From Oceanococcus sp. (GTDB lineage: Bacteria; Pseudomonadota; Gammaproteobacteria; Nevskiales; Oceanococcaceae), in assembly GCA_030147945.1 (NCBI GenBank), contig JASBUL010000125.1, forward strand, positions 1 through 64,000: 64,000 bases of DNA, in the 5' to 3' direction. The notes beneath the pieces are model-generated. The model searched no databases. It was not told the origin of the DNA and was given only the letters and a program-made list of their open reading frames with translations. The position numbers were made by a program, and so were the translations under genes. Shown here one piece after another: positions 2,992 through 28,396 of this stretch; the first letter of the stretch is position 1, and the number at the start of each line of letters is the position of its first letter.

Positions 2992-5900
2992 TTGCGCGCA
3001 TCATCGACTGGTCGGTGCACAACCGGCCGCTGGTGTTGCTGGCCGCCCTGTTTCTGGTTGCGGCCGGGCTGCTGGCGCTCAAGGACACGGCGGTGGATGC
3101 CATTCCGGATCTGTCCGATGTGCAGGTCATCATCCGTACTCCGTTTGCCGGGCAGGCACCGCGGGTGGTCGAGGAGCAGGTCACCTATCCCTTGTCCACC
3201 GCCATGCTGGCGGTGCCCGGGGCCGCGTCGGTGCGGGGCTATTCGTTCTTCGGGGATTCCTACGTGTACATCCTGTTCGAGGACGGCACGGATCCGTACT
3301 GGGCGCGCTCACGGGTGCTGGAATCGCTGTCCCAGGTGGCGCCCAATCTGCCGGATGCGGCACGTCCCGCGCTGGGCCCGGATGCCACCGGGGTGGGCTG
3401 GGTTTACGAGTACGCCCTGGTTGACCGCAGCGGGCAGCATGATCTGTCGCAGCTGACTTCCTTGCAGAACTGGTTTCTGAAGTACGAACTGCAGACGGTT
3501 GAAGGGGTGGCTGAAGTGGCCACCGTGGGCGGCATGGTGCGGCAGTATCAGGTGGTGGTGGACCCCGATCGCCTGCGTGCGCTGAACATGCCTCTGGCAC
3601 AGGTGCGCAAAGCCATTCAGTCTGCCAATCAGGAGGCCGGCGGCGCCGTGGTGGAAATGGCGGAGGCCGAATACATGGTGCGCGCCACCGGCTATCTGCG
3701 CGGTGTTGACGATCTCAAAGCGATTCCGCTGCGCAGCACGACCGATGGCGTGGTGGTGAGTCTGGCCGATGTGGCCGAGATCCAGATCGGGCCTCAGCTC
3801 AGGCGTGGTATCGCCGAGCTCAACGGTCAGGGTGAGGTGGTTGGCGGGATCATCGTGATGCGTTACGGCGGCAACGCGCAGGCCACCATCGAGCGGGTCA
3901 AGCACAAGCTTGAACAGCTCAGTTCGAGCCTGCCTGACGGGGTGGAAGTGGTGCCGGTGTATGACCGCTCCGAGCTGATCGGGCGGGCGGTCGACAATCT
4001 GTATCGCACCTTGCTGGAAGAATTTCTGGTGGTGGCCCTGGTCTGCGCGGTGTTCCTGTTCCACCTGCGTTCGGCCCTGGTCGCCATTGTCAGCCTGCCG
4101 GTGGGCATTCTGGTCGCGTTTCTGATCATGCGCTGGCAGGGGCTCAACGCCAACATCATGTCGCTGGGCGGCATTGCCATTGCCATTGGTGCGATGGTCG
4201 ATGCGGCCATCGTGATGATCGAGAACCTGCACAAGCACATGGAGCGAAAAGACGATGCGCGCACGCACTGGCAGCGCGTGGTCGAGGCCTCCAGCGAGGT
4301 TGGGCCGCCGCTGTTCTTTTCCCTGCTCATCATCACCCTGAGCTTTCTGCCGGTGTTCACGCTGGAAGCGCAGGAGGGGCGTCTTTTCACACCGCTGGCG
4401 TACACCAAAACCTATGCCATGGCAGTCTCGGCGGGTCTGGCCATCACCCTGGTGCCGGTGCTCATGGGTTATTTCGTGCGCGGACGCATACGCGCGGAAC
4501 AGGACAACCCGATCAACCGCATCTTGATGAGGCTCTACACCCCGGTGATTCGGACGTTGCTGCGGGCGCCATGGCTGGTGGTTGGCGGCGGGGCGCTGGC
4601 CGTGCTGGCCACGCTGTACCCGGCCACCCGGCTGGGTTCGGAGTTCATGCCGCCGCTGGATGAGGGTGACTGGATGTATATGCCCACCACCCGCCCTGGC
4701 ATCTCGATTGGCAAGGCCCGCCAGGTGCTGCAGCAGACCGACAAGCTGATCAAATCGGTGCCGGAGGTGGATACCGTGTTCGGCAAAATCGGGCGTGCCG
4801 AGACCGCCACGGATCCGGCGCCGCTGACCATGATCGAGACCACCATCACCTTCAAACCGCAGAGTGAATGGCGCGAAGGCATGACCCTGCAGGACATCCG
4901 TGAAGAGATCAAACAGCGGGTTCAGCTGCCGGGGGTGACCAACGCCTGGGTGATGCCGATCAAGACCCGCATCGACATGCTTGCCACCGGCATCAAAACG
5001 CCGGTCGGGATCAAGATCGGTGGATCCGATCTGGCCCAGATTCAGGCTATTGGTCGTTCGCTGGAGGCCCTGCTGCCGCAGCTGCCGGGCACTGCCAGTG
5101 TGTACGCCGAACGCGTTGCTGGCGGGCGTTACATCACGGTGGATATCGATCGCCAGCGGGCTGGTCGCCTGGGCCTCAATATCGATGATGTGCAAGCCGT
5201 GGTGCGCAGTGCGATCGGTGGCATGAATGTGACGCAGACGGTGGAAGGTCTGGAGCGCTATCCGGTGAATCTGCGTTACCCGCAGAGCCTGCGCGATTCG
5301 GTGCAGGCAATAGACGCCTTGCCGATCGTGACGCCGGGTGGGGCACAGGTCGCGCTGGGTGATGTGGCCGAGGTGCGGGTGGAGGACGGCCCGCCGATGA
5401 TCAAGAGCGAGAATGCCCGTCTGTCAGGCTGGGTTTTTGTCGACATCCAGGGCCGTGATGTGGGCTCCTACGTGCGCGAAGCTCAGGCCCTGGTCGAGCG
5501 TGAACTCAAGCTGCCGCCGGGTTACGCACTGAGCTGGTCGGGGCAATACGAGTACATGCAACGGGCCAAGCAGAAGCTTGCGCTGGTGGTGCCGGCGACC
5601 CTGGCGGTGATCACCTTGCTGTTGTTCCTGGCTTTTCGCAGCTTCGCCCAGGTCGCGATTATCCTCGGCACCGTACCGCTGGCACTGATCGGCGGGGTGT
5701 GGTTGCTGTTTGCGCTGGGCTATCCCCTGTCGGTGGCCGTTGGGGTCGGGTTCATAGCGCTGGCCGGCGTTGCGGTGGAGATCGGTGTGGTGATGCTGGT
5801 GTACCTGAACATGGCCCGCGCGCGGCTGATCGAAGACAGCCGTGAACGTGGCTACGCGCCCACGCTTGAAGACTGGCGTCAGGCGGTTGCGGACGGTGCC

Positions 5901-24984: not shown

Positions 24985-25407
24985 CTAGCGGCTGGTCGCG
25001 CGGTTCTCGATCAGGGCCATCAGCCGATAACCGGCCAGCATGGCCACCACAAAGGCAAGAATTTTGAGGTTGCCGGTGGCCAGGCCGGCCACCGCCGGCC
25101 CGGGGCACAATCCGGCCAAGGCCCAACCCAGGCCGAAAAGCGCGGCGCCACCGATCAGCTTGCGATCGATGGTGTGCTTGCCGGGCAGGTAAAAGCTTTT
25201 CTCGAACAACGGGTAGGGGCGTTTGAGAATGAGGTAGAAGCCGGGCAGGGTGACCGCGACCGCGCCGCCCATCACCAGCATCAGCGACGGGTCCCAGTCT
25301 CCGGCAATATCTAGAAAGCTCAGTACTTTGGCCGGGTCCATCATGTTCGAAAGCGCCAGTCCGAGGCCGAACAGAACGCCACCGATCAGGGCGATCAGAT
25401 TTCTCAT
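24985..25407 (-). CDS. YeeE/YedE-type sulfur half-transporter (DUF6691), second half
   Basis: 140-residue membrane protein from the ATG at 25407 (MRNLIALIGGVLFG). It has four or so transmembrane helices with the conserved motifs LSNMMDPAKV and LAGLCPGPAVAG, whose Cys matches the C-terminal half of YeeE/YedE thiosulfate transporters. It starts 2 bp after the stop of the other half-gene, so the pair makes a split transporter, probably importing or exporting sulfane sulfur. Confidence 0.9.
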   Translation of the reverse strand: MRNLIALIGGVLFGLGLALSNMMDPAKVLSFLDIAGDWDPSLMLVMGGAVAVTLPGFYLILKRPYPLFEKSFYLPGKHTIDRKLIGGAALFGLGWALAGLCPGPAVAGLATGNLKILAFVVAMLAGYRLMALIENRATSR

Positions 25408-25409
25408 GC

Positions 25410-25847
25410 TCAGACTCCTGCGACGTGGCGGATCACGAACACGGTCGCAAAGGCGACCAGCATAAACACCGCCGTTGCGGTTATTGAACGTGGTGATACG
25501 CGACCGATACCGCACACGCCATGACCTGATGTGCAGCCGGAGCCGAGCTTGGTGCCCAGGCCGACCAGCAGCCCGGCCACGATCATGGTGGGCAGCCCAA
25601 CGTCGACATGAATGCTCAGGGCATCGGCGGGCGCGACCCTCAGAAAGGCGAAGGCGCTGCCGATCAGACCGGCGGTAAATGCCAGGCGCCAGGCGAACTC
25701 GCTGCCACGTGATGACATCAGATTGCCGACGATGCCGCTGATGCCCGCGATGCGGCCGTTAAAGCCGAGCATGATCAAGGCTGACAGGCCGATCAGAACG
25801 CCGCCAGCCAGCGCGGTCCAGGGGGTGAATTGTGTGACGGTATACAT
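25410..25847 (-). CDS. YeeE/YedE-type sulfur half-transporter, first half
   Basis: 145-residue membrane protein; helices include LAGGVLIGLSALIMLGFNG. The key motif is GTKLGSGCTSGHGVCG, with the conserved Cys that carries sulfur in YeeE. Together with the downstream half it is equivalent to one full-length YeeE. In other bacteria such pairs sit beside a persulfide dioxygenase, which here is divergent. The promoter carries a perfect 13-bp palindrome over its -10. Confidence 0.92.
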   Translation of the reverse strand: MYTVTQFTPWTALAGGVLIGLSALIMLGFNGRIAGISGIVGNLMSSRGSEFAWRLAFTAGLIGSAFAFLRVAPADALSIHVDVGLPTMIVAGLLVGLGTKLGSGCTSGHGVCGIGRVSPRSITATAVFMLVAFATVFVIRHVAGV

Positions 25848-25871
25848 GCAAGCTCTCAGTGAAACAGTTTT

Positions 25872-25903
25872 TGCTAATTTAGCATCTATTGAAATTCAAA
25901 CAA
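25872..25903 (-). promoter_or_regulatory. Promoter of the yeeE pair with a palindromic operator on its -10
   Basis: On the minus strand TTGTTT (plus 25898-25903), a 16-bp spacer and TAAATT (plus 25876-25881) form a sigma70-like promoter. The perfect dyad TGCTAA-A-TTAGCA (25872-25884) covers the -10 exactly, as a repressor site would. The regulator is not in the window. Confidence 0.55.
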
Positions 25904-25931
25904 GGGTCTGCGCGGTTGATGAGGTCAAATA

Positions 25932-25966
25932 TGCTATTATGGAATGACATTATCGCTTAATGGAAT
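25932..25966 (+). promoter_or_regulatory. Extended -10 promoter and paired ATGGAAT repeats before the persulfide dioxygenase
   Basis: TGCTATTAT (25932-25940) resembles an extended -10. The heptamer ATGGAAT occurs at 25939-25945 and again at 25960-25966, 21 bp apart, which is two helical turns. The first copy touches the -10. This could be a binding site for a dimeric regulator. Confidence 0.4.
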
Positions 25967-25982
25967 ATAAGGGTGGTGTCAT

Positions 25983-26678
25983 ATGCTGTTCCGACAGTTG
26001 TTCGACAGTGATTCAAGCACTTATACCTATTTGCTGGCCTCCGGTCGCGGTCGGGAAGCGCTCATCATCGATCCGGTCAAGACGCAATTGTCGGCGTATC
26101 TTCAGCTCATCGAAGCGCTGGATCTCAAGCTGGTGCGCGCTCTGGACACACACACCCATGCTGATCATGTAACCGCGCTGGGCGATCTGCGTGATCACAC
26201 CCAATGCGTGACCGTGATGGGGCAATACAGCAAAGCGGCATGCGTATCCGAACGGGTATCGGATGGCGATCGGATTGTGATTGATGGTTTGGCTCTGGAC
26301 GCGATCTACACCCCGGGGCACACCGATGAGTCGTTCAGTTTTTACTGTCGTGAAGCTGGACCCGGCATGGTGTTTAGCGGCGATGTGCTGCTGATTCGCG
26401 GCACTGGACGCACGGACTTTCAGGGCGGCGATGCGCATAAATCGTGGGATTCGATCACCAGGCGGCTGTTCACCCTGCCGGACGAAACCCTGCTTTATCC
26501 AGGCCACGATTATCGTGGTTGGACCGTGTCGTCCATTTACGAGGAGAAGCACTACAACCCACGGTTGGCGGGCAAGACTGAAGACGAGTACGTGCACATC
26601 ATGAACACGCTCAATCTGCCCAATCCCAGACTGATGGATATCGCGGTGCCTGCCAATCTGGCCTGCGGTCAGGTCTGA
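25983..26678 (+). CDS. Persulfide dioxygenase (ETHE1/Blh-like metallo-beta-lactamase fold)
   Basis: Mononuclear iron enzyme oxidising glutathione persulfide to sulfite and GSH. 231 residues. Metal ligands by motif: HTHADH (His57, His59, Asp61, His62), His113, Asp134 and His175 in YPGHDY. The ETHE1-specific GTGRTDFQGGD follows the Asp. No rhodanese domain is fused. It leads an operon whose next gene, a SulP anion transporter, overlaps by 1 bp (TGATG), which would suit export of the sulfite/sulfate product. Divergent from a split YeeE transporter. Confidence 0.93.
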   Translation: MLFRQLFDSDSSTYTYLLASGRGREALIIDPVKTQLSAYLQLIEALDLKLVRALDTHTHADHVTALGDLRDHTQCVTVMGQYSKAACVSERVSDGDRIVIDGLALDAIYTPGHTDESFSFYCREAGPGMVFSGDVLLIRGTGRTDFQGGDAHKSWDSITRRLFTLPDETLLYPGHDYRGWTVSSIYEEKHYNPRLAGKTEDEYVHIMNTLNLPNPRLMDIAVPANLACGQV

Positions 26679-28396
26679 TGCAGATTCCGCTGATTGTGCA
26701 TGTGCGTCGCAGCGCCCCGGGCGCGCTGAACGACGACCTGATTGCAGGCGCGATCACCGCGATCTTGTTGATCCCGCAGGGCATGGCCTACGCCTTGCTG
26801 GCGGGCTTGCCGGCGGAAATGGGCCTGTATGCCTCGATTGTTCCGCCGGCGCTGTATGCCGTGTTCGGCACCAGTCGCAGTCTGGCTGTCGGGCCGGTGG
26901 CGGTTGCCGCCTTGATGGTCGCAGCGGCGCTGTCCGAATACGCTGGTGATGAGCCGGCGCGGTGGATGACCGGGGCGATGATTCTGGCCTTTGAGGTTGG
27001 CGCGTTGCTGTTCCTCATGGGTGTTTTACGCCTGGGTGTGCTGGTGAATTTCATCAGTCACCCGGTACTCAGTGGTTTTACCACTGGCGCGGCGTTGCTC
27101 ATTGTCCTGAGCCAGATACCGATACTGCTCGGTCTGGCGCTGAGTCGTGGTTCGGCCTATGACACCGTGTCCGGTGTGTGGCACAAGCTCGGCGACGTGC
27201 ATGGCATGACCATGGCGTTCTCCGTGCTGGCCATGCTGGCCTTGCTGCTGGCGCGCGCGCCGCTTTCACGGGCCTTGCGTCGACTTGGGGTGGCGTCGCG
27301 GGCGGCGCTGCTGCTGACGCGGATGGCGCCTCTGGCCATTGTGGCGCTGGGCACCCTGGGCGCGGCACGCATGCACGGCGCGGACCAAGGCCTGAGCATC
27401 GTCGGTGCCATTCCTTCAGGTTTGCCGCTGCCGGATCTGGGTTTCTTCCTGACCGACGGCTGGCTGGAACTGGCGGGACCGGCCGTGTTGATTGCCCTGG
27501 TCGGGTATGTGGAGAGTATCTCCGTGGCCAAGGCGCTGGCAGCACGCCGGCGCCAGAAAATCGACCCCGATCAGGAGTTGAGGGCGCTTGGTCTTGCCAA
27601 TTTCGGGGCGGCCTTTGCCGGTGCGATGCCGGTGGCCGGCGGATTTTCCCGTTCGGTGGTGAATTTCGATGCCGGCGCGCAGACCCAGCGTGCGGCACTG
27701 GTGACCTCGGCGCTGGTTGCGCTGGTCGCGGTCTTTTTCACGCACTGGTTCTTTCATCTGCCCAAGGCGGTGCTCGCGGCGATCATCGTGGTGGCGGTCT
27801 GGCAGTTGGTCGACTTCCGCTCGATCCGGCGCCATCTGCGCTACGACCGCGCCGATGGCGCCTCGCAAGTGGCAACCCTGGTGGGGGTGCTGGTTTTCGG
27901 TATCGAGCCCGGACTGCTTATCGGCATCGGCCTGTCGCTGGTGCTGTACCTGTGGCGGACGTCTCAGCCACATATCGCGGTGATCGGGCGCGTGCCTGGG
28001 ACCGAGCACTTCCGCAATGTGCAGCGCCATGAGGTGCAAACCCTGCCCACGGCGGTTTTCATTCGTCCCGATGAGAATCTGTACTTTGCCAATGTGGCGG
28101 TGGTGCAGAAGTTCATTGCCGACCAGGTGGCCGAGCAGGGCGACATCACCGATGTGGTGCTGGTGATGTCGGCCGTGAGCTACATTGATGCCAGCGGCCT
28201 GGAAATGCTGGAGCATCTGGTTCAGGACTTTGCCCGTGCGGGCATTCGCCTGCATATGGCCGAGGTCAAGGGGCCGGTCATGGATCGCTTAAAAGCAGCG
28301 CCCGAGGTGCTGGAGCACTTGCCGGTGCATCTGAGCACCGAAGGGGTGTTCGAAGCCTTGCAGGCCTCTTCGCCCGAATTCGCCAGTCAGACTTGA
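26678..28396 (+). CDS. SulP family anion transporter with STAS domain
   Basis: 572-residue membrane transporter for sulfate, bicarbonate or a related anion. The N-terminal transmembrane domain (about 15-410) begins PLIVHVRRS and has the signature GMAYALLAGLPAEMGLYAS. The C-terminal STAS domain (about 440-560) has VVLVMSAVSYIDASGLEML. It is coupled to the persulfide dioxygenase by a TGATG overlap, so sulfite or sulfate is the favoured substrate by context; direction of transport is unknown. Confidence 0.93.
   Translation: MQIPLIVHVRRSAPGALNDDLIAGAITAILLIPQGMAYALLAGLPAEMGLYASIVPPALYAVFGTSRSLAVGPVAVAALMVAAALSEYAGDEPARWMTGAMILAFEVGALLFLMGVLRLGVLVNFISHPVLSGFTTGAALLIVLSQIPILLGLALSRGSAYDTVSGVWHKLGDVHGMTMAFSVLAMLALLLARAPLSRALRRLGVASRAALLLTRMAPLAIVALGTLGAARMHGADQGLSIVGAIPSGLPLPDLGFFLTDGWLELAGPAVLIALVGYVESISVAKALAARRRQKIDPDQELRALGLANFGAAFAGAMPVAGGFSRSVVNFDAGAQTQRAALVTSALVALVAVFFTHWFFHLPKAVLAAIIVVAVWQLVDFRSIRRHLRYDRADGASQVATLVGVLVFGIEPGLLIGIGLSLVLYLWRTSQPHIAVIGRVPGTEHFRNVQRHEVQTLPTAVFIRPDENLYFANVAVVQKFIADQVAEQGDITDVVLVMSAVSYIDASGLEMLEHLVQDFARAGIRLHMAEVKGPVMDRLKAAPEVLEHLPVHLSTEGVFEALQASSPEFASQT

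Follow-up and report, generated by a model that had tools for sequence, protein, structure and literature searches.

A 13-bp palindrome in the gap between the sulfur genes yeeE and pdo of an Oceanococcus draft genome is probably (we put it at about 0.70) the conserved centre of an operator of the SqrR/BigR/HlyU type of ArsR proteins, which would span positions 25864-25892 and act in trans on yeeE, with the predicted repressor encoded at G000:C76:5195-5518. The estimate is held slightly lower than it otherwise would be, because the corresponding site at the bigR operon of a sister species proved weak. What looked like an orphan palindrome thus becomes a testable operator, and the regulator it would serve can be named. 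The wiring of sulfide and persulfide genes is known, and it is the layout here that is unusual; it suggests that a persulfide regulon has been rewired, from operon to control in trans, within one bacterial family.

The gap, its flanking genes and their relatives

The window, that is, the whole stretch of 64,000 nucleotides analysed, holds a 135-bp gap at 25848-25982, from which yeeE1 (minus strand) and pdo (plus strand) diverge. The genes concerned are the following.

24985-25407, minus strand: yeeE2 (DUF6691, a YeeE half), an open reading frame; 24985-25434 exceeds the cut-offs of PF20398 and PF04143
25410-25847, minus strand: yeeE1 (Sulf_transp), first of the yeeE pair, an open reading frame; PF04143 at 29 bits, cut-off 27
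25983-26678, plus strand: pdo, persulfide-dioxygenase-like, metallo-beta-lactamase fold; PF00753, match to ETHE1 (4chl) at E 2.8e-56
26678-28396, plus strand: SulP-type sulfate permease with STAS, directly after pdo; PF00916, TIGR00815 over cut-off

Besides the ETHE1 persulfide dioxygenase, the pdo protein matches other proteins of known structure with the metallo-beta-lactamase fold, and a search of the NCBIfam equivalogs gave none above its cut-off. The sequence-only reading had seen no regulator gene nearby, which is borne out for about 21.5-30.9 kb of the window: none of the nine proteins scanned there matches a transcription-regulator family (Pfam, E 0.001).

Our comparisons refer to the own draft genome (G000, 3.14 Mb), a sister species of the same genus (G001) and a related genus of the same family (G002), among others. 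A pdo match at E<=0.001 is present in 139 of the 146 genomes searched, the own one included, and layouts were compared across 131 loci with a pdo relative of >50% identity, several of them overlapping or repeated. The arrangement of yeeE1-yeeE2 diverging from pdo-SulP at equal distance recurs in one other genome, that of the sister (L006/L117), and the fact that just one relative has the same layout counts against our preferred reading. A Caballeronia locus (L045) has a diverging yeeE too, at 200 bp, with another dyad readable before pdo.

A palindrome on the putative yeeE promoter

Within the gap, the following elements are discussed.

25864-25892, minus strand: predicted BigR/SqrR-type operator; matrix ranks 1 and 2, own and sister half-sites 16/16
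25872-25884, no strand assigned: 13-bp palindrome TGCTAATTTAGCA, exact match, with the conserved core CTAATTTAG at 25874-25882
25876-25903, minus strand: putative yeeE promoter, by eye; -35 TTGTTT (25903-25898), 16 bp, -10 TAAATT (25881-25876)
25932-25940, plus strand: putative extended -10 of pdo, TGCTATTAT, by eye
25939-25966, plus strand: ATGGAAT pair, copies at 25939-25945 and 25960-25966; chance-level
25941-25956, plus strand: GGAATGACATTATCGC, a possible second dyad at the start of pdo; the two top ranks of the window with a 28-bp matrix

The genome search proposed earlier for the 13-bp dyad returned a single exact copy of TGCTAATTTAGCA in the draft genome. As a bare palindrome it is modest, since odd palindromes with arms of at least 6 appear in 4.05% of 2000 dinucleotide shuffles of the gap, and odd or even ones in 8.75%. 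Taken as a motif it is stronger, with CTAANTTAG arising in 0.35% of 2000 such shuffles, and as a motif it needs explaining. The claim that it covers the yeeE -10 holds in part: the palindrome overlaps a plausible TAAATT, read by eye and with a promoter spacing also readable by eye in the sister, but a consensus scan of 25700-26100 found no sigma-70-like site.

Loss of the motifs in relatives with the same gene pair had been named as what would speak against them. In the one such relative, G001, the palindrome core stands and the heptamers do not: a MAFFT alignment shows the inner CTAATTTAG kept and the outer TG..CA lost, and at the heptamer places the sister has TAGAAT and ATGAAT, so that GAAT-N17-GAAT is what both species have in common. 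The ATGGAAT repeats, 21 bp apart, do exist as described; however, they are at chance level and need no explanation, because a repeated 7-mer arises in 44% of 2000 dinucleotide shuffles of the gap.

A predicted operator of the SqrR/BigR/HlyU type

On the plus strand, the predicted operator reads ACAG-N6-CTAA-T-TTAG-N6-TTGA, that is, two overlapping, degenerate TTAG-N6-CTAA dyads. Across 25 upstream regions of bigR-like genes, a TTAG-N6-CTAA-n-TTAG-like element stands directly before the gene in 18 (by eye) and is absent in 5; the remaining two are those of the own genome and the sister, where the element precedes trxC instead. Sixteen sites from such promoters of relatives, with the own genome and the sister excluded, were made into a matrix; L163 shows the motif but did not match the regular expression and was omitted, and L131 and L151 show it and were not entered. 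The remark that the motifs differ from BigR sites is therefore not upheld for the palindrome, which fits the centre of this promoter element of relatives, and the CTAAATTAG in a protected HlyU 35-mer points the same way (PMC4330345, in excerpt).

When applied to the window, the matrix places the gap first and second of 127,926 positions, once per strand (13.3 and 13.1), the next positions being at 1.2 and, at the pdo start (25936, minus strand), at -0.6. The full score of 13.3 lies below that of the training sites (27.7-52.3), with the outer half-sites ACAG and TTGA degenerate, and the inner CTAA-n-TTAG scores 18.4 within a training range of 17.0-25.6. Shuffled gaps reach the observed score in 2 of 1000 cases for the own gap and 5 of 1000 for the sister's, with gap composition as background; over matrix positions 7-29 the two gaps score 17.3 and 18.4, respectively, and 400 random 135-bp segments drawn from the window reach at most 7.7. 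A profile of the bigR-like sites (R1), run on the window without filters, has the gap as its sole matches up to E 10 (0.041 and 0.43). Searches of 20 chosen genomes gave matches in 15. For the sister genome, the yeeE-pdo gap is the single match at an E value of 10 or lower (E 0.96), and the whole-genome profile search in the own genome gave no match up to E 10.

Both species share AACAG-N6-CTAATTTAG-N4-TATTGAA on the yeeE side. All 16 half-site bases agree between them, against 3 of the 12 spacer bases (one-sided Fisher test, 3.2e-5), in a frame of two overlapping half-N6-half dyads that was picked with the alignment in view. This retention of the half-sites while the spacers diverged, along with the match to an independently derived matrix, makes it quite improbable that the palindrome is a functionless coincidence of an AT-rich promoter, even though the 4% of shuffles with odd palindromes of 6-bp arms, the unconserved outer letters and the empty whole-genome profile search in G000 would all suit such a coincidence.

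Related sites are found elsewhere. A pattern search of the own genome allowing up to two mismatches gave six places, namely the gap (2), the trxC-bigR promoter, the promoter of a second pdo gene (pdo2), and one each on contigs C74 and C13, the last two with no evident sulfur genes; with three mismatches chance prevailed in the search (66/70 matches; 568/630 in the reversed control). The trxC-bigR promoter site scores 19.1 in the own genome and is weak in the sister at 9.3. The pdo2 gene (G000:C12:100272-100961, L115) is 71% identical, and its promoter has a TTAG-N6-CTAA dyad, which pdo2 of the sister also has with a different spacer. SQR was considered as a further BigR target and rejected: in the 1500 bp before the gene, own and sister alike, no position scores above -6.3. 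Of 85 genomes of the order, 11 contain the exact TTAG-N6-CTAA-n-TTAG, at 15 places altogether (reversed control, 4 places); 11 of these places are at bigR-like genes, a partly circular count since most are matrix sites, two (G055, G030) precede a pdo gene by about 0.85 kb, and the other two are in G057 and G008.

The regulator gene and a proposed mechanism

Of 100 genomes, 82 match a bigR-like query from Fontimonas at E<=0.001; the match reaches E<=5.6e-18 in 20 of the 100 and is at 1e-14 or weaker in the others. The strong match of the own genome (C76:5189-5497, 64% identity, 5.5e-38) is unlinked to the gap and belongs to the open reading frame at 5195-5518, of 107 residues. The encoded protein has an ArsR-type helix-turn-helix (PF01022 at 53.5 bits, cut-off 22) and a pair of cysteines, one in the second helix region and one near the C-terminus, both aligned with cysteines of HlyU. 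Among solved structures its closest relatives are HlyU, followed by BigR (3pqj), by entries of the 6o8k-6o8o group (labelled 'ArsR family', probably SqrR), and by NolR and YgaV. It reaches 95 bits against the NCBIfam BigR equivalog NF040642, below the cut-off of 155, and is therefore not filed as BigR in the strict sense.

The regulator gene lies between a preceding thioredoxin-2-like (trxC) gene and a gene for a FieF-like cation efflux protein. The former scores 124.5 bits at an NCBIfam TrxC cut-off of 125, with Zn_ribbon_Thio2 over the Pfam cut-off; the latter is below the cut-off of the FieF equivalog and over that of the CDF superfamily. The trxC-bigR order is seen in the own genome (L155, 5195-5982 of G000:C76) and in the sister (L156). 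Genes like trxC at >=63% identity are also present in the bigR loci L159, L161, L164 and L165, giving 6 of 17 loci in all, and weaker matches (42-46%) in 4 further of the 17. In G002, the end of bigR overlaps the start of yeeE1 (65% identical), and yeeE2 (70%) comes next.

According to our preferred reading, the reduced repressor would sit on the -10 and the start of the yeeE1-yeeE2 promoter and block it. Persulfide would then close a bridge between the two cysteines, the repressor would leave the DNA, and the yeeE transporter genes would be expressed.

Relation to known systems

The persulfide-sensor context (BigR/SqrR) proposed from the letters was right. In Acinetobacter baumannii, BigR controls a yeeE-yedE-pdo2 operon (PMC7315123, in excerpt). 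As here, that system combines YeeE halves with a persulfide dioxygenase, and its repressor is an ArsR-type persulfide sensor; whereas it forms one operon, yeeE and pdo are divergent here and the regulator gene is unlinked. For Vibrio HlyU, the best solved relative of the regulator, the 35-mer that contains CTAAATTAG was protected experimentally (PMC4330345, in excerpt). Activation by HlyU proceeds from a site located 173 bp upstream of the promoter, in contrast to the predicted site here, which covers a putative -10. When scored with the BigR matrix, the HlyU oligo is placed in a different register, and 117 of 2000 shuffles score as well. SqrR of Rhodobacter capsulatus likewise has a cysteine pair and belongs to this ArsR group, but its site, deduced as ATTC-N8-GAAT (PMC9774250, in excerpt), is absent from both strands of the gap. 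SqrR is reportedly reduced and reset by TrxC, the thioredoxin-2 of R. capsulatus (PMC10044876, in excerpt); the TrxC-like gene preceding the regulator gene here fits this resetting, and the feedback can be tested starting from the genome layout. No printed BigR operator sequence was found in the literature searched, the coverage of which ended short of the BigR (2007/2011) and SqrR (2017) papers, and we make no claim that the predicted operator is unpublished.

The pdo side of the gap

The putative pdo -10 lies about 42 bp beyond the predicted operator and is not covered by it, and pdo is probably controlled separately. It is accordingly doubtful that a single BigR-type regulator drives both directions from the gap. 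The BigR-type dyads at pdo2 in both species and the control of a pdo gene by BigR in A. baumannii (PMC7315123, in excerpt) would agree with a single regulator, and the pdo start is the fourth-best BigR-matrix position of the window; yet that position, the gap's sole other candidate, has a score of -0.6, compared with 27.7-52.3 among the training sites.

A tentative alternative, about which we are also sceptical, has a BigR-type regulator at yeeE and a second one at pdo, binding a GAATAACGTTAT-type dyad of relatives of the same order. Such a dyad is found 40-62 bp before pdo in 11 relatives, and with a 28-bp matrix of these sites the pdo start takes the top two ranks both in the window (17.4 and 16.8; next 10.3) and in the 9.5-kb locus of the sister (13.1 and 10.4; next 8.3). 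The sites were chosen after a likeness to L022 had been noticed, so the ranking is partly circular; all 11 served for ranking and 10 for the shuffles, L019 being equal to L022 and dropped. Shuffles reach the score in 1 of 1000 cases for the own gap but in 103 of 1000 for the sister's, and the 16-bp core ranks just fourth in the window, with 12 and 303 of 1000 shuffles, respectively. The 12-mer GAATAWCGWTAT has the pdo promoter as its sole place in 6 of 8 genomes and no place in 2 (reversed control, 2 places), which favours a second regulator, as does the want of a sigma-54-type GG-N10-GC in the gap, on which control by sigma-54/FisR was rejected. Against it, GAAT follows the -10 by 1 bp here and stands farther off in the relatives (by eye), and an adjacent regulator, sought for this dyad, is not evident in the 11 loci listed. 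Own and sister have two identical runs of 9 bases: CTAATTTAG, and ATATGCTAT, in which the TGCTATTAT of the putative pdo -10 sits. We treat the pdo-side dyad as a lead and not as a result; the sister adds no support beyond composition. The initial suggestion of two separate regulators or one unfamiliar one survives in its first half, in that two separate sites are possible, but the palindrome best fits the known SqrR/BigR/HlyU type.

More speculative, and unlikely in its entirety, is a split persulfide circuit, in which bigR would have left an ancestral yeeE operon, would now stand behind the gene of its resetting thioredoxin (trxC-bigR-fieF-like) and control yeeE in trans via a degenerate operator, with pdo under a second, undescribed regulator that has a single site per genome.

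Control of the gap by CstR/CsoR-type proteins was rejected, since ATACCC..GGGTAT-like sites are seen in some relatives and none here; a CsoR-family search gave one partial match in G000 and none in G001. Judging from these promoters, the regulator of pdo seems to have changed repeatedly among relatives. CstR/CsoR-like ATACCC..GGGTAT is readable by eye near the pdo start in L007, L008, L028, L031 and L062. Dyads of the ATAAG..CTTAT type are readable by eye upstream of pdo in L045, L048, L054 and L055, the one in L055 having a diverging SQR-like gene on its other side.
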